IMG/VR virus record: IMGVR_UViG_3300032753_000083
Location: 1-38,317 of that record
Length of the DNA: 38,317 nucleotides
Source: a virus
Reading direction: 5' to 3' (one strand)
Under the pieces are notes generated by a model. It ran no database searches. It saw only the letters and a program-made list of their open reading frames with translations, and was not told the DNA's origin. The translations under genes and the position numbers were made by a program. Positions 27,889 through 34,270 of the stretch are shown piece by piece. The number at the start of each line of letters is the position of its first letter. Positions within the stretch are counted from its first letter, which is position 1.

Positions 27889-29832
27889 ATGGCACGTTAT
27901 AATACCACACTAGCGACAGAAATAGTCTCTGGAGCACAAACACTCTTGTCACCAGCACAAGGTGGATACACAGAATTTCAAGGTACTGCACCTTATACTG
28001 TAACAATTCCAGGACCATCGTTGTTCCTAGGTCAGACACAAAGTTATTTTAATAACACATCTGGCATAGTTACACTTCAAACGCCAGCTGGTGTCATTAA
28101 CGGTCCTGGTTCAACAAGTTCTAACACAATAGCTTTGCCAGCAGGTAGCAGTATTATTATTGCATCTGATGGCACAAACTACAGCGTTATTACTTTTCCA
28201 GGCGGCCCACAATATGGAGTTACTGGAACATTTTCAAGCGATTTAATTAGTACCAACACAGGTACTGTTAACGTTTTTAATACTAACGCAACAGCAATCA
28301 ACGCATTTGGTAATGCAAGTACAATTAACATTGGTTCAAGTACTGGTACAACAACAATTAATAACTCACTATTAGTTAAGGGCGGTATTACTACAGTTAA
28401 CTCAAGTTCAGTATTAGTTGAAGACAAGAACATTGAAATTGGTTATGTTAACCCAGTTAGTTATGGTGGCGGTACTATTGGTACTATTACTGGTTCATTG
28501 GGCTCGAGTACAACATTTACAAGTATTACTGGTACTAAAGTAACAGCCGCAAGTACATATAGTGGTGTTAGTCAATTCGCAACAAGTGGTGTTGGTACCG
28601 GTGCAACATTTAACATAACAACTACTGGTGCAGGTACAACATATACTGGCGTAACTACAATTACATTAGTTAACCCGGGTTCAGGATATGCAATTAACGA
28701 TACAATTACTATTGGTGGTAGTTCTTTAGGCGGTACAACTAGCCCAAACAACTTAACATTTACAGTTAGTAACGTAATTTACTCACCATGGACTGCAACT
28801 GTTACTCTTATGACCAACACAACCAACTTGGTCGCTGGTCAATCAGTTAGTGCAACTAACGGTACAGGTAGCTTAGGAGGCGGCGGTACAAGTTATATTA
28901 TTTCTAACGTTCCAAGTTCAACAAGTATACAAGTAACTGCAACAGGTGGTACAACTCCAACAGCAGGTACTATTACAGCAATTATTCCAGGTAGTGCTGA
29001 TACATTTGCCAACGGCGGCGGCATTAAATTATACGGATCAACTAATCACTTATTAACATGGAACAGCGCCGCAAACGGACCAGCTAACGGTAACCAAAAC
29101 CCAGCATGGGTAAGTACTGAAGGTTTAATGATTAGTACTTCTAACGGTTTTGGTATTCAAAATACCGGTAACGTTAACTTTAACATTTTAACCAACGGAC
29201 AGGCAACAGGTACTGTATCTATTGCAACTAACGCGGGTACAGGTAACTTGTTTACTAACGCAAGTTCGGGCGTTTCAATTGGTGCTAGCGGTGGTACTGC
29301 TACAATTAGTAACACTAACCTTACAGTTGGACAGTCTGGTGGTACAGTTACTTTCAACGGTATTACAACTTTCACAATGAACAGCGTAACATCGTTTAAC
29401 TTAACTGGCGGTGGTACAATGAACGCTGGTAGTACATATGGTTATTTTAGTTCTCTAGGCGTTGGTACTAACACTAACGGTGGCGGCGGTACAATTTATG
29501 CTTCAAACAACATTGTTGCTTACTATTCTGATGATAGATTAAAGACACGTTTGGGCAAAATTGAAGATGCTCTTGCTAAATTAGAAACATTAAATGGTTT
29601 CTACTTCGAAGCTAACCAAACTGCTCAAGATTTGGGCTATACCGTTCAACGTGAAGTTGGAGTTTCGGCTCAAGAAGTCAACGCAATCCTGCCAGAAATT
29701 ATTAAACCAGCTCCGATTGACGCTAAGTACATGACAGTTCAATACGAAAAGTTATTACCTTTAGTAATTGAAGCAGTTAAGGAATTGTCAGCCCAAGTTA
29801 AAGAATTGAAAAAACAAATTAACAAAGAGTAA
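27889..29832 (+). CDS. Tail fibre with C-terminal S74 intramolecular chaperone (647 aa)
   Basis: The N-terminus (FQGTAPYTVTIPGP, then QSYFNNTSGIVTLQTP and SIIIASDGTNYSVIT) is a common phage fibre attachment module. The middle is a beta shaft interrupted by a family C cassette (about 28555-28775) and more Gly/Thr modules. The last 101 residues are a peptidase S74 (endosialidase-type) chaperone domain: YYSDDRLKTRLGKIEDALAK, GFYFEAN, a GVSAQEV motif, LPEII and MTVQYEKLLPLVIEAVKEL, ending in a short coiled coil. In this family the domain drives trimerisation and then cleaves itself off using a Ser-Lys dyad; here Ser547 and Lys552 fit, with cleavage expected just before Ser547. Only 3 bp separate it from the Asn/Cys-rich gene. 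Confidence 0.9.
   Translation: MARYNTTLATEIVSGAQTLLSPAQGGYTEFQGTAPYTVTIPGPSLFLGQTQSYFNNTSGIVTLQTPAGVINGPGSTSSNTIALPAGSSIIIASDGTNYSVITFPGGPQYGVTGTFSSDLISTNTGTVNVFNTNATAINAFGNASTINIGSSTGTTTINNSLLVKGGITTVNSSSVLVEDKNIEIGYVNPVSYGGGTIGTITGSLGSSTTFTSITGTKVTAASTYSGVSQFATSGVGTGATFNITTTGAGTTYTGVTTITLVNPGSGYAINDTITIGGSSLGGTTSPNNLTFTVSNVIYSPWTATVTLMTNTTNLVAGQSVSATNGTGSLGGGGTSYIISNVPSSTSIQVTATGGTTPTAGTITAIIPGSADTFANGGGIKLYGSTNHLLTWNSAANGPANGNQNPAWVSTEGLMISTSNGFGIQNTGNVNFNILTNGQATGTVSIATNAGTGNLFTNASSGVSIGASGGTATISNTNLTVGQSGGTVTFNGITTFTMNSVTSFNLTGGGTMNAGSTYGYFSSLGVGTNTNGGGGTIYASNNIVAYYSDDRLKTRLGKIEDALAKLETLNGFYFEANQTAQDLGYTVQREVGVSAQEVNAILPEIIKPAPIDAKYMTVQYEKLLPLVIEAVKELSAQVKELKKQINKE
28555..28775 (+). repeat. 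Family C cassette, copy 3
   Basis: Contains GVGTGATFNITTTGAG, NPGSGYAINDTITIGGSSLG and SPNNLTFTV. It is inserted in the shaft of the S74 fibre between its IEIGYVNP strand and the FANGGGIKLYGSTN strand. Confidence 0.65.
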
Positions 29833-29835
29833 AAA

Positions 29836-30225
29836 ATGACAACACCTTCCGGAACAATATACATCAGCCAAGTTGACGGCGAAATTGGACTACCAAATAG
29901 TAGTCCATATTCTAACCTAAGTTTCTTGAACGGCTATGTTATTCCTGGTCAGCGCGATTCATATCCTGATATGAACGAAATGCGTAACAGAGCATACTAC
30001 CAGTCAAATAACAAAGGCAACTGTAACAACGGTAACTGCGGAAATTGTAATTGTAATTGCGGTAATATCTGTTGCTATAACTGTTATATTAATGGTCACA
30101 TTAATTGTACAAACTGCGACGGACAAAACTGGTTACAAAACAACTGTAATTGTAACTGTACCTATAATTGCAATTATGCTTCAGGATCATATAACTGTAA
30201 TTGTAATTGTAACTGTAATTGTTAA
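29836..30225 (+). CDS. Asn/Cys-repeat protein, putative virion-borne substrate of the radical SAM enzyme (129 aa)
   Basis: Residues 1-56 (PSGTIYISQVDGEIGLPNSS, then LSFLNGYVIPG) resemble the short N-terminal domain of many phage appendage proteins (SG.I..S.I..E.G..S....SL). Residues 57-129 are dominated by Asn and Cys: 19 Cys at 63, 68, 71, 73, 75, 79, 80, 83, 91, 94, 104, 106, 108, 112, 121, 123, 125, 127 and 129, ending in five Asn-Cys pairs. A single Trp (W99) lies in this tail. The gene begins 3 bp after the S74 fibre gene and is followed 16 bp later by a radical SAM/SPASM enzyme, the usual order of precursor and maturase in RiPP clusters. I infer that the tail is cross-linked or otherwise modified. 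Metal binding or disulphide packing are alternatives. I do not recognise a named family. Confidence 0.7.
   Translation: MTTPSGTIYISQVDGEIGLPNSSPYSNLSFLNGYVIPGQRDSYPDMNEMRNRAYYQSNNKGNCNNGNCGNCNCNCGNICCYNCYINGHINCTNCDGQNWLQNNCNCNCTYNCNYASGSYNCNCNCNCNC
30193..30222 (+). repeat. (AAYTGT)5 hexanucleotide repeat encoding (Asn-Cys)5
   Basis: Five in-frame AAY-TGT units end the Asn/Cys-rich gene just before its TAA. Shorter in-frame runs of the same unit lie at 30043-30060 and 30142-30159. Gain or loss of whole units by slippage would change the number of Asn-Cys pairs without breaking the frame. Confidence 0.85.
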
Positions 30226-30241
30226 CAAGACAAGGAACAAC

Positions 30242-31720
30242 ATGATTTTTGAAATTCTGGCAGAAAGATATGGTACTGGCGTTACCGATCAAAAGACATT
30301 TTTTTACGATAACGAAAAAAATATCTTAAGTGATGAAACTGGTTATATCTGGGAATATCCTAACACCTACGCTAATTCAACATTTATACAAGATGTTCCA
30401 TATAAGCCATTTGATAAAAATAATCCTTTGAAAAAATCAAAGGATGTACGTACAGTAAAAATTCAAATGGGGTTATCTTGTAATTACAGTTGTGATTATT
30501 GCAGTCAGAAATTTGTCGAACGTCCACGTGAAACTAACGCTAAAGATATTGAAAACTTTATGGAGTTATTCAATAACTTAAATTTTAGCGAAGATCGTGG
30601 ATTACGTGTTGAGTTCTGGGGCGGCGAGCCATTTGTTTATTGGAAAACAATGAAACCATTGGCCGAAGCTATTGCAGAAAGATTTAAAGACTGGAAAAAT
30701 AAACCATCATTTAGCGTTATTACTAATGGTAGTTTGTTAACAGAAGAAAATTGTGCATGGTTATATAGCATGGGATTCCACGTTGCTGTCAGTCACGACG
30801 GTCCTGGACAATTCACTCGCGGACCAGACCCGTTTGAAGATCCTAAAAAACGTGAAGTTGTATTAGATTTATATCAAATTTTACGTCCTTTAAACCGTAT
30901 GAGCTTTAACTCTATGTTAAGTTATAAAAATCAAAGTCGTAAAGCAATTTATGATTGGTTTGTCGACTTTACAAATGATCCAAGTGTATTGTTAGGCGAA
31001 GGAACATTTGTAGATGCATACGATGAAGACGGTTTAGAAAATTCACTTAAAACAAAAGCAGATCATTTTGCCTTTAGACAACGTTCTTTTGGGGAAATAT
31101 TTGGAACTAATGGAGAAATTGGTTTTACAGGTATACTTGGTAAGATTGATAATTTTACAGAAGACTTGTTAACACATCGAGAAGCAGATTATCTCGGTCA
31201 AAAATGCGGCATGGACAGTGAAGAAACTGTTGCATTTGACCTACGTGGAAATGTAATTACATGTCAAAACGTAAGTGCATTAGAAACAGGTAAAAATGGT
31301 GAACCACATTTAAGCGGTAACATTGCAAATATCGAAGATGTTTCAATTTCAACAAGTACACACTGGTCAAACCGTAAAGAATGTCCAGAGTGCCCCGTAT
31401 TACATATTTGTAAAGGTGCATGTATGTTCTTAGATGGCGTTTACTGGAAAGCTAGTTGTAACAATGCCTACTCAGATAACGTGCCATTGTTCGCCGCAAG
31501 TATTGAAAAAATTACAGGCTACATTCCTGTATTAATTAAGAGCGATACATTACCTTTAGATCGTCAAGATATCTGGGGTAATATATACAAACACGAAGAA
31601 GAACAACCAAAGAAAATTATACCAATTAAGGTAGTCAGTGAAAAAGTTGCGGTAATCGATAACATCGAAGTTTACGGCAAAAGTTCCCTGATAAATACTA
31701 CAGAAGAATCAGGAGCATGA
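30242..31720 (+). CDS. Radical SAM/SPASM peptide-maturase-like enzyme (492 aa)
   Basis: The canonical CNYSCDYC motif (Cys80, Cys84, Cys87) binds the catalytic [4Fe-4S] cluster and S-adenosylmethionine; the SAM-binding WGGEP follows at residues 126-130. The C-terminal half has the full SPASM cysteine pattern for auxiliary clusters: Cys322, then G336-X4-Cys341, then Cys381-X2-Cys384-X5-Cys390-X3-Cys394 and Cys406. Enzymes of this class modify ribosomal peptides (thioether or C-C cross-links, epimerisation) or activate sulphatases. The start is ATG 30242, preceded by AAGGAAC; an earlier in-frame ATG at 30092 lies inside the Asn/Cys gene and is rejected. Residues 1-70 might bind a leader, but I see no clear PqqD-like fold. 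The position beside a Cys-rich small protein argues for a peptide substrate. Confidence 0.88.
   Translation: MIFEILAERYGTGVTDQKTFFYDNEKNILSDETGYIWEYPNTYANSTFIQDVPYKPFDKNNPLKKSKDVRTVKIQMGLSCNYSCDYCSQKFVERPRETNAKDIENFMELFNNLNFSEDRGLRVEFWGGEPFVYWKTMKPLAEAIAERFKDWKNKPSFSVITNGSLLTEENCAWLYSMGFHVAVSHDGPGQFTRGPDPFEDPKKREVVLDLYQILRPLNRMSFNSMLSYKNQSRKAIYDWFVDFTNDPSVLLGEGTFVDAYDEDGLENSLKTKADHFAFRQRSFGEIFGTNGEIGFTGILGKIDNFTEDLLTHREADYLGQKCGMDSEETVAFDLRGNVITCQNVSALETGKNGEPHLSGNIANIEDVSISTSTHWSNRKECPECPVLHICKGACMFLDGVYWKASCNNAYSDNVPLFAASIEKITGYIPVLIKSDTLPLDRQDIWGNIYKHEEEQPKKIIPIKVVSEKVAVIDNIEVYGKSSLINTTEESGA
31690..31698 (+). promoter_or_regulatory. T4-type late promoter (GATAAATAC) inside the radical SAM gene end
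   Basis: Seven of eight bases match TATAAATA. Predicted transcription start is near 31703, giving a short leader with AGGAG at 31711-31715 before the ATG at 31722. The spacing to ribosome-binding site and start resembles that at 15506. It would give the 306-residue protein and the halogenase-like gene extra late expression. Confidence 0.5.
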
Positions 31721-31721
31721 A

Positions 31722-32642
31722 ATGAATTTATACTTGGCAAACGGAACTAACAGATTATATGCATTATCAATTCAACTTGACGAGTCAAGTTTGACTTATA
31801 AGACATATGATGTGTATGAAACAATTAAATTAAAGCAATTCTGGGAAACACAAACAGGTAACGTATTACCTGGATCTTTATTTGATAAAGCACCTACACC
31901 TGCTATAACACCTGCATGGGTTACTGAAACATATTCAGTTTACGAAAGCCAATCACCTGAATCGCAAACTATTAATTTTTCGGACATTCAAGGTTTATCT
32001 GATTTTTCAGATCACGGTATTTTCATGTTGTATTCACCAGATTCTCCGTCTTATGTTTCTCCGATTAGACCAACGGCTCCTTCTTCGGTGCCAGCAGGAA
32101 AAACATCGATTAGAGTTCCACTTCATAACGGATACGCACTGACTACTGGTTCAAAAATGAGTCCATTTGTTCATAGTGCATTTAATAACAATATTGCTAT
32201 GATTGCAATATGTGTGCCATTTGCAAGTGCTCCAGTTGATCAATGGTCAATTGTGTTTAACGTGAAAGATTCTAGTTTGTTTAAGTTAACATCTGGACAA
32301 GCAACAACACCAATGCAAGGAAATAGCGTTGGTAAATTTACAAAAAGTTTATTACCTAAAGTATGGTTTACTAATAAAACTATGACTGTAACTGCTGATG
32401 GATTTGTTGATGTTCCTTTTTACTTAGGAGATTCAACAGGAAATCCTATCACACAATCAGATGCAACTGTATATTTGAAAACCACAGCAGGACAGTTAAA
32501 CAAACAACAAGTTACCACAATTAATGGTCAAGGTACTGTTCGTTTAATTGCAAGTCATTTAGTTTCTGGAGAAACTGCAACTATTAGTTGCGGATTTAAA
32601 TTATTCTCGGGAACAGACGATTGCGTTGTCACTGTAAATTAA
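31722..32642 (+). CDS. Unrecognised protein with Ig-like C-terminal domain (306 aa)
   Basis: I do not recognise the family. Residues 1-55 are mixed alpha/beta (MNLYLANGTNRLYALSIQLD), and residues 70-210 are aromatic- and Ser/Pro-rich with strand-like stretches. Residues about 214-306 read as a bacterial Ig-like domain (VWFTNKTMTVTADGFVDVPF, ITQSDATVYLKTTAGQL, GQGTVRLIASHL, ending in a CVVTVN strand). There is no catalytic motif, signal peptide or membrane segment. Composition is closer to the virion proteins than to the enzymes around it. It begins 1 bp after the radical SAM stop with AGGAG upstream and is followed 7 bp later by the halogenase-like gene. It could be a second virion substrate, a scaffold presenting the substrate, or an unrelated appendage protein. 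Confidence 0.6.
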   Translation: MNLYLANGTNRLYALSIQLDESSLTYKTYDVYETIKLKQFWETQTGNVLPGSLFDKAPTPAITPAWVTETYSVYESQSPESQTINFSDIQGLSDFSDHGIFMLYSPDSPSYVSPIRPTAPSSVPAGKTSIRVPLHNGYALTTGSKMSPFVHSAFNNNIAMIAICVPFASAPVDQWSIVFNVKDSSLFKLTSGQATTPMQGNSVGKFTKSLLPKVWFTNKTMTVTADGFVDVPFYLGDSTGNPITQSDATVYLKTTAGQLNKQQVTTINGQGTVRLIASHLVSGETATISCGFKLFSGTDDCVVTVN

Positions 32643-32649
32643 GGAAAAT

Positions 32650-33861
32650 ATGAAAATAGGAATTGTAGGTTCTGGAACCGCCAGCGCAGTTTCACTATTA
32701 AAAATATTTGAACAACTCGAAAAACATCAATGTAAGCATGTTGATGTTTTTTGCATTTATGATCCTAACATTCCTATCACTACGGTAGGGGAAAGCACTA
32801 GTTCGTTATTGCCAATCTTGTTATACAACGTAGCAAATTTTTCAATAACCGAAGAAATGCAACATTTTGATGGTACATTAAGATGGGGTACTCGATACTA
32901 TTGGAAAGATGCTAACGATACAGAGTTTTTTGTTAAAAACGGTATACCAGGTTTGCACGTTAATAGTGAAAAATTTAGTAGATTTGTAATTAATAGGCTA
33001 GATGAAATTTACGAAAACTTTAGCCAGATACATGGCAACGTATCTAGTATGACACAAGATGCATATAAAGTTACGGCAGTCATCGATGATGTTGAACATA
33101 AATTTGATTTTTTAATCGATTGCAGAGGAAATCCAACAGAAGAAGAATTGAATAGTGGCGCATACAGCTTTCCTCAATTTGAAACAGTTAATTCTGTTAT
33201 ATTATATCCAGATTTTAAAGAATATAATGAAGATATTACATCAGCGTATGTACATGAAGATGGGTGGATGTTCGGAGTTCCACTAACACATCGAAAAGCG
33301 TTTGGATATTTGTACAATAAAAACTTTACAAGTCACGAAGAAGCAAGTGAAAAATTTGCAAAATTAAAAGGTATCGATACAATTAATCTAAGAAGATTCA
33401 GTTGGAGACAGTATTATAAAAATACTGCTATGGACGGAAGAATTATGTCTATGGGAAATCGATTACAATTCTTTGAACCTGCACAAGCATTGCCGTTACA
33501 TTATTACATTAATTTAACAATGGAATTCATTAGTCGAATTATTAATAATAATTTAGACGTACATAAGATGAATATACAATTAAATTTTGACCATAGAAAA
33601 AATATAGAAGGAATGCAAAATTTAATTGCATTAAATTATTGCGGGTCTTGTAATATTAAAAGTCCGTTCTGGGAATATGCTACAATTAACTCAAGAAAAC
33701 GTCTAAAAAATTCTCAACAGTTTCAACAATATTTAAGAGACTGTGAAAAATCTGAAAAAATTGAAATATACTGGTGGCATAACGCCCAGTTAATGAAAGA
33801 ATACATTGACGGATTTGGAATTAAATTAGATCAACTAAGTCAAAAACAGTCTGCAACTTAG
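32650..33861 (+). CDS. Flavin-dependent tryptophan-halogenase-like protein (403 aa)
   Basis: The N-terminal GIVGSGTASA (residues 4-13) is the FAD-binding loop, followed by TTVGESTSSLL (residues 44-54), as in tryptophan halogenases. Residues 205-211 (GWMFGVP) occupy the place of the family's GWxWxIP motif, with Phe for the second Trp, followed by GYLYNKNFTSHEEA (usual GYVYS..F.S..EA). NRLQFFEPAQALPLHYY (residues 270-286) matches the F.EPLESTS region. Where halogenases have the catalytic Lys in FK.., this protein has TLRWGTRYYW with Arg78, so chlorinating activity is uncertain. Halogenase-like genes are known in cyanophage-type myoviruses. The AAGGAAA start signal lies 7 bp after the previous gene. 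Its last 41 bp overlap the Nudix gene on the other strand. Possible roles are peptide Trp halogenation or another flavin oxidation. Confidence 0.75.
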   Translation: MKIGIVGSGTASAVSLLKIFEQLEKHQCKHVDVFCIYDPNIPITTVGESTSSLLPILLYNVANFSITEEMQHFDGTLRWGTRYYWKDANDTEFFVKNGIPGLHVNSEKFSRFVINRLDEIYENFSQIHGNVSSMTQDAYKVTAVIDDVEHKFDFLIDCRGNPTEEELNSGAYSFPQFETVNSVILYPDFKEYNEDITSAYVHEDGWMFGVPLTHRKAFGYLYNKNFTSHEEASEKFAKLKGIDTINLRRFSWRQYYKNTAMDGRIMSMGNRLQFFEPAQALPLHYYINLTMEFISRIINNNLDVHKMNIQLNFDHRKNIEGMQNLIALNYCGSCNIKSPFWEYATINSRKRLKNSQQFQQYLRDCEKSEKIEIYWWHNAQLMKEYIDGFGIKLDQLSQKQSAT

Positions 33862-34270
33862 TTCTTATTGTTTTGCTACTAAAACTGTTACGTAACCCTT
33901 GGTGCAAAGGTTTAGGAGCACGATCGATAGTAGTCCATGCCCATCCAATATGTTCGTCACTTAGTGTTGGAATAAATTCAGATTCTATCACACACAAGTA
34001 TGTGTGGAAATTAAAAACTTTGTCGTTACTAACAAATGTTTCTAGAGGTATAGTTTTAATTATATTAGGTACAGCGCCTATTTCTTCTTTAATTTCACGT
34101 TGTAAACCTTGCCAAGGTGTTTCTCCAGTGATATTAGTACCACCTACTAGCCCCCAAGTGCCTTCGTGTTTACCGTGACTTTTTTGAAGAAGTAAAAATC
34201 GTTGTGTAGACTTTGCATAAAACAATGCACCACTACAAACAATTTGTTCTTTTACAATACTATTTTCCAT
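33821..34270 (-). CDS. Nudix hydrolase (149 aa)
   Basis: A complete Nudix box, GGTNITGETPWQGLQREIKE followed by EIGA (GX5EX7REUXEEXG), follows an MutT-like beta strand (RFLLLQKSHGKHEGTWGLVG). The Glu residues of REIKEE would bind Mg2+ for hydrolysis of a nucleoside diphosphate linked to another group. Small Nudix enzymes of T4-type phages act on damaged or host nucleotides, or on ADP-ribose/NAD-type substrates; the substrate here cannot be told. The ATG is 19 bp inside the end of the gp15-like gene, so the two are co-transcribed and coupled. At the other end the gene runs 41 bp into the convergent halogenase-like gene, leaving no room for a terminator between them. Confidence 0.88.
   Translation of the reverse strand: MENSIVKEQIVCSGALFYAKSTQRFLLLQKSHGKHEGTWGLVGGTNITGETPWQGLQREIKEEIGAVPNIIKTIPLETFVSNDKVFNFHTYLCVIESEFIPTLSDEHIGWAWTTIDRAPKPLHQGLRNSFSSKTIRTKLQTVFDLVDLI

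Follow-up and report, generated by a model that had tools for sequence, protein, structure and literature searches.

Radical SAM maturases are familiar as makers of small peptide antibiotics and of cofactors. Among the systems closest to the locus described here, QhpD acts on a structural subunit, in which it forms three Cys-Asp/Glu thioethers (PMC7876137), and PapB joins Cys to an Asp or Glu that lies 0–6 residues downstream (PMC9413430). In CteB, Aux I leaves one site open, where a Cys of the substrate binds; the Aux I of anSME is fully ligated (PMC6231123). A search of the open-access literature found no paper on radical SAM enzymes in the maturation or modification of phage fibres. Read from its sequence, the present locus would place a known kind of system, a radical SAM/SPASM maturase with a Cys-rich substrate, in a new setting, the phage fibre. 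It lies in a window (the whole stretch of DNA that was analysed, 38,317 nucleotides) that is a 38-kb virus record with T4-like tail genes, among them the gene for the gp15 sheath stabiliser, and a 61.6-kb contig carries the same locus at 100% identity.

A comparison with the QhpD–QhpC pair reveals a likeness of plan. In both cases the substrate of the radical SAM enzyme would be a multi-Cys structural protein, here the product of an Asn-Cys ORF and there the gamma subunit of quinohemoprotein amine dehydrogenase, and no secreted peptide. The QhpD–QhpC operon includes a flavoprotein, QhpG (PMC7876137), as the cassette in the window includes a Trp-halogenase-like flavoprotein, and the QhpD model TIGR03906 is the third-best NCBIfam match of the enzyme, yet at 57.8 bits against a cut-off of 453. 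The substrates differ: that of the window is unrelated to QhpC, presumably sits on a phage appendage, carries Asn beside its Cys in place of Asp or Glu, and is not known to have a cleaved leader. With the ranthipeptide maturases PapB and CteB (SCIFF) the locus shares a Cys-rich substrate that adjoins its enzyme; CteB, a thioether synthase, is furthermore the nearest fold and has an identical Aux I ligand pattern, and the PapB model NF047865 matches the enzyme at 9e-20, below the curated cut-off. Unlike these two systems, the window enzyme shows no complete RRE in its model, its presumed substrate is a C-terminal tail carried on unrelated bodies, and the acceptor would be Asn, Ala or Asp. The linkage range of PapB and the cross-links that QhpD makes in a structural subunit render an Asn/Asp-Cys ladder chemically plausible.

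The Asn-Cys protein and its cassette

Five co-directional genes with gaps of 1–16 nt form an apparent operon (Table 1): the S74 fibre/baseplate gene, whose stop lies 3 nt ahead of the start of the Asn-Cys gene, the Asn-Cys ORF itself, and the genes for the radical SAM/SPASM enzyme, the Ig-like protein and the flavoprotein. The last is found in nine of the 11 closest loci, and its product may act on the same substrate as the maturase.

Table 1. Features of the window, with position, strand and remarks
Feature	Position	Strand	Remarks
Giant fibre-like ORF, 2777 aa	7172..15505	+	
Giant fibre-like ORF, 3987 aa	15540..27503	+	
Tail fibre/baseplate protein, C-terminal S74 chaperone domain	27889..29832	+	upstream neighbour
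Asn-Cys tail protein, 129 aa	29836..30225	+	presumed maturase substrate
N-terminal region without Cys, residues 1–60	29836..30015	+	family motif SGxIxxSDIxxEiGxxxxxSxxLxFLN
Cys/Asn region	30016..30222	+	conserved core (GNCNNGNC...NCTNCDGQNWLQNNCNCNCTYNC), then terminal (NC)5
Radical SAM/SPASM maturase, 492 aa from ATG at 30242	30242..31720	+	PF04055 2e-9; phrog_1802 5.7e-60; invariant Cys; model nearest CteB
Radical SAM motif CX3CX2C (C80, C84, C87)	30479..30502	+	invariant in 35 aligned sequences
SPASM region C322...C341...CX2CX5CX3C...C406	31205..31459	+	all seven Cys invariant in 35 sequences
Accessory protein, 306 aa, C-terminal Ig-like domain	31722..32642	+	third gene of the usual cassette; model and fold search
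Trp-halogenase-like flavoprotein	32650..33861	+	PF04820 6.5e-29; optional
NUDIX hydrolase	33821..34270	-	flanked by the cassette and by the gp15 sheath-stabiliser gene; conserved across 12 loci

The Asn-Cys ORF opens with MTTPSGTIYISQVDGEIGLPNSSPYSNLSFLNGYVIPGQRDSYPDMNEMRNRAYYQSNNKG, runs on into a stretch that holds 19 Cys and some 26 Asn, and ends in NCNCNCNCNC. A preliminary description of this DNA had placed 19 Cys within the last 67 residues, and this is borne out: the ORF translates as described, with every Cys in that stretch, and the chance of at least 19 Cys in 67 residues is 8.6e-30, about 1e-29, against the 0.41% Cys of ten large ORFs of the window. The same description had the Cys mostly alternating with Asn, which fits the terminal (NC)n; the alternation is not pure, since a conserved core, NCxNCDxQxWLQxNCNCxCTYNC, precedes it. 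The residue before the tail Cys is Asn in 307 instances, Ala in 52 and Asp in 40. The Cys codons are mixed (14 TGT, 5 TGC). A relative on a freshwater-type contig (L018) is 79% identical and keeps 18 of 18 aligned Cys at pN 0.11 and pS 0.85, with synonymous sites saturated, and the Cys core is retained in a family of 27 aligned relatives. Together, these three observations exclude slippage or repeat noise and, by comparison of the sequences, indicate that the ORF is a protein under selection.

The N-terminal region had been described as a virion-type domain. The protein, N-terminus included, has no Pfam, PHROG or NCBIfam match, and neither the whole protein nor its N-terminus found anything by tblastn against annotated phages, so that in these terms the label was a guess. 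Some ground for it comes from an N-terminal profile of the protein's family, whose sole match outside that family is the N-terminal module of a glycine-rich phage adhesin-like ORF (MTTPSGQISLSQVNTELGFS...; L051:2718-3761; E 0.0013), an ORF that itself matches PHROG families, one of them tail-fibre, and from the occurrence of the same tail on bona fide tail-fibre families. Homology to tail-fibre families is present for the tail-bearing proteins of other phages, which match them in PHROG; the 129-residue protein shows only a distant N-terminal similarity. On these comparisons, and with a tail-fibre gene ending 3 nt upstream, the tail protein is likely displayed in the virion. A PDB profile match of the protein to a designed cytochrome trimer (2e-4) was taken as compositional and rejected.

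The radical SAM/SPASM enzyme

The product of the next gene has the CX3CX2C motif of the radical SAM superfamily and matches PF04055 at 38.2 bits against a gathering cut-off of 29.5. The pattern that defines SPASM, CX9-15GX4C ... CX2CX5CX3C ... C, is present as C322-X13-G336-X4-C341, C381-C384-C390-C394 and C406, all invariant. The enzyme falls in PHROG 1802 (radical SAM domain-containing protein), a family catalogued without function or substrate, for which the present analysis supplies a candidate substrate. Its AlphaFold model (mean pLDDT 82.9) ranks CteB as the nearest fold with a Z of 20.2, followed by anSME (17.4), ChlB (17.2) and TigE (17.0), with EpeE at 11.4. The best single PDB sequence match is TigE (8vpo), which to our knowledge is not a thioether synthase. 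The curated NCBIfam maturase models (PapB, SCIFF, geopeptide, CcpM and QhpD) all score far below their cut-offs, the best at 73.0 bits against 400. The N-terminus of the model contains three strands and one short helix; a complete RRE, taken as a leader-binding unit of three strands and three helices, is not seen there, the helical part being incomplete.

The likeness to anSME lies in the SPASM architecture and the fold, and one record labels a homologue in phage JWF a sulfatase maturase. An anaerobic sulfatase maturase was taken to have a catalytic Asp after Aux I Cys276 and four Cys ligands in Aux I. In the window enzyme, by contrast, the alignment places an invariant Gln342 at the position of anSME Asp277, which we take to be the catalytic base, and finds no equivalent of C261, so that neither the catalytic Asp nor the fourth Aux I Cys is present. 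The resulting three-Cys pattern is that of CteB, which in the alignment likewise has neither a C261 equivalent nor Asp277. Because the C261 equivalent is missing, the Aux I of the enzyme would have an open site, as in CteB (PMC6231123), and this pattern favours a thioether-type chemistry, as far as sequence can indicate it.

Linkage of tail and enzyme

Two collections were drawn from IMG/VR, one of 80 loci found with the enzyme as query and one of 106 stretches of DNA encoding NCNCNC followed by a stop. From tail to enzyme, the test set comprised in-frame tails on fibre-like ORFs that are 60 aa or longer and have 4 kb or more of downstream sequence. All 36 fibre-like tails with sufficient flank have a radical SAM enzyme alongside, against none of 15 control NCNCNC matches, which have no ORF of at least 60 aa or belong to non-fibre families (Fisher 3e-13, contigs being counted regardless of relatedness). 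No enzyme accompanies the 21 NCNCNC stretches without a 60-aa ORF or the non-fibre families ending in NCNCNC. The fibre-like tails that have no enzyme all lie within 1.5 kb of a sequence end; L152, counted in this group although its type is non-fibre, is the exception at 2.8 kb. From enzyme to tail, there are 51 non-redundant viral enzyme loci, 28 of them flanked by 3 kb or more on either side. Every one of these 28 has a tail, 26 by pattern or family and two (L079 and L088) through a fibre-sized ORF ending INCRNCNC. Linkage of tail and enzyme is thereby shown in both directions.

The fibre body of L080, stripped of its tail, served as query for a covariation test. Among related fibre modules, the five with a tail all have the enzyme and the 41 without a tail all lack it (p 7e-7, relatedness not factored in); many of these sequences have only a repeat module in common with the query. 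In a second fibre family (L065), tail and enzyme occur together in all 39 loci with enough flank, two irregular tails counted. By single-linkage clustering, one large group takes in most of the fibre bodies, and the rest fall into several unrelated smaller groups. Since the proteins paired with the enzyme belong to several unrelated body families, the tail is their common element, and the enzyme tracks the tail and not the fibre body.

The association spans more than 100 related phage sequences, in viromes and in bacterial genomes of Burkholderiales, Rhodobacteraceae and Rhodospirillales. Most of the loci from bacterial genomes, which are prophages or binned phage contigs, have tails down to about 35% enzyme identity; among the more distant bacterial enzymes, several with 33–38% identity lack a recognised tail protein in their vicinity. 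In some phages (L025–L064) the gene pair is distant from recognisable tail genes, many of them having an internal tail ahead of a domain of about 170 aa.

The neighbours of the enzyme are either relatives of the Asn-Cys ORF, sharing the N-terminal SGxIxxSDIxxEiG motif and the Cys core, or quite different tail-fibre proteins that terminate in NCNCNC or NCNCNCACDCCC. Beyond the core, three endings occur: the bare repeat, as in the window ORF, where no HINT domain is found and the tail is the end of the protein; a domain that begins SKIICTKLY and is about 170 aa long; or a HINT domain. Phages JWF and 2-1, like loci in bacterial genomes, have this autoprocessing HINT domain immediately behind the tail. 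In JWF it belongs to gp028 (L094:11799-13250; PF05203, 3e-12), and it also directly follows the Asn-Cys tail of tail-fibre proteins in L095, L204, L237 and L059. The domain of about 170 aa, SKIICTKLYxxGMM...ADQxYGEWLKK, lies behind the Cys core at the C-terminus of the L027–L062 tail proteins and has no Pfam or PHROG match; in these loci, which are situated away from tail genes, the Ig-like gene is missing.

Other arrangements were also seen. Two or three tandem proteins of about 90–170 aa, each ending NCNCNC, stand ahead of one enzyme gene in L178, L183, L191 and L145. Extreme tails with 29–31 Cys (CACVDCACACDC...) and with Ala or Asp replacing Asn occur in L026, L038 and L040. Two further families end in NCNCNC with no enzyme nearby, one of about 185 aa (L105, L141, L152, L188) and one of about 203 aa (L108, L130, L159, L170), possibly by chance or for another use.

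Proposed modification and alternative explanations

It seems reasonably probable that the ORF product belongs to a phage appendage, as a fibre-associated protein, that its C-terminal Asn-Cys region is modified by the adjacent maturase, probably with thioethers, and that its tip is probably displayed. A fibre or appendage protein would be made with a C-terminal ladder of Cys and Asn, Asp or Ala, the ladder itself being observed, and the partner enzyme would act on this ladder, as the tests in both directions and the covariation test strongly imply. Because the bodies are unrelated, recognition would proceed through the tail itself or through the Ig-like helper, which would assist in most phages. 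Several intramolecular thioethers, each linking the sulphur of a Cys to a carbon of an Asn, Asp or Ala nearby, would then probably make the flexible Cys-rich tail a compact tip stable to redox and protease. This would be a RiPP-like chemistry carried out on a structural protein. In the HINT variants, what is known of this domain suggests that cleavage before the HINT Cys would leave the ladder as the new C-terminus. Finally, the rigid tip would remain on the protein and be shown at the end of the appendage, where it may cap the fibre or contact the host. Bridges from Cys to carbon had already been put forward for this protein; a maturase encoded directly next to it and the co-occurrence of enzyme and tail across phages make a thioether-type modification the best reading, and we infer the type of bond from sequence.

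A broader proposal, to which we give a little less than an even chance, is that the Asn-Cys tip, the Ig-like helper and the dedicated enzyme form a portable cassette, present in several unrelated fibre lineages and recognising the tip rather than a leader, that makes cross-linked appendage tips and so represents a new class of virion modification. It seems that phages chemically modify their host-binding fibres at the tips, probably by cross-linking. If true, this would provide a new route to a stable, possibly receptor-contacting tip, assign a function to PHROG 1802, and offer a natural system that might cross-link proteins ending in a short Asn-Cys tail. In that case, moreover, sequence alone would not suffice to predict the host-binding tips of phages.

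A different radical chemistry on the same tail is unlikely; the candidates are epimerisation of alternate residues into a D/L strand, C–C or other bonds, or conversion of Cys to formylglycine aldehydes that could bind host amines. The strict two-residue periodicity suits an alternate-residue chemistry, the epimerase EpeE/YydG is among the radical SAM matches, TigE is the best sequence match, and the JWF homologue bears its sulfatase maturase annotation. Epimerisation needs no Cys, yet Cys is the conserved feature of the tail, and EpeE stands at a Z of 11.4 against 20.2 for CteB. Formylglycine formation is judged unlikely in view of the invariant Gln in place of Asp277 and the missing fourth Aux I ligand. 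Metal-bearing spike tips are known, and CxC repeats are classic metal ligands, so the tail might instead form a metallothionein-like metal or Fe-S binding tip, with the enzyme needed indirectly or acting elsewhere. This would leave unexplained why the enzyme is present with the tail (36/36 and 39/39) and absent without it (41/41), and is regarded as improbable.

The usual RiPP layout of a short precursor beside a radical SAM maturase raises the idea of a secreted, phage-encoded bacteriocin or signal cut from its precursor. That idea is very improbable: Pfam and PHROG searches find no protease or exporter in the cassette, the tail elsewhere terminates tail-fibre proteins of about 300–1,000 aa, and cleavage of the HINT fusions would leave the tail exposed on the fibre and not release it. 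Equally hard to credit is the proposal that the Ig-like protein is the true substrate and the Asn-Cys tail a linked passenger. The Ig-like protein does occur in 40 of 41 non-redundant tail and enzyme loci ending in (NC)3, most commonly in the order tail, Ig-like, enzyme. Its gene is nevertheless missing from all 40 loci L025–L064, which keep the enzyme and in 38 cases the tail-protein family, and an obligate role as substrate was therefore rejected. Fold searches with the Ig-like protein, a putative helper, returned only generic Ig-like domains from the PDB and mostly uncharacterised phage proteins from a viral library. In marine-type loci (L071, L072 and L080–L090) the enzyme is followed by a conserved run of genes for a protein of 104 aa, a DctP-like solute-binding protein and a PP-loop ATPase; the latter two are found in 12 of 41 loci.
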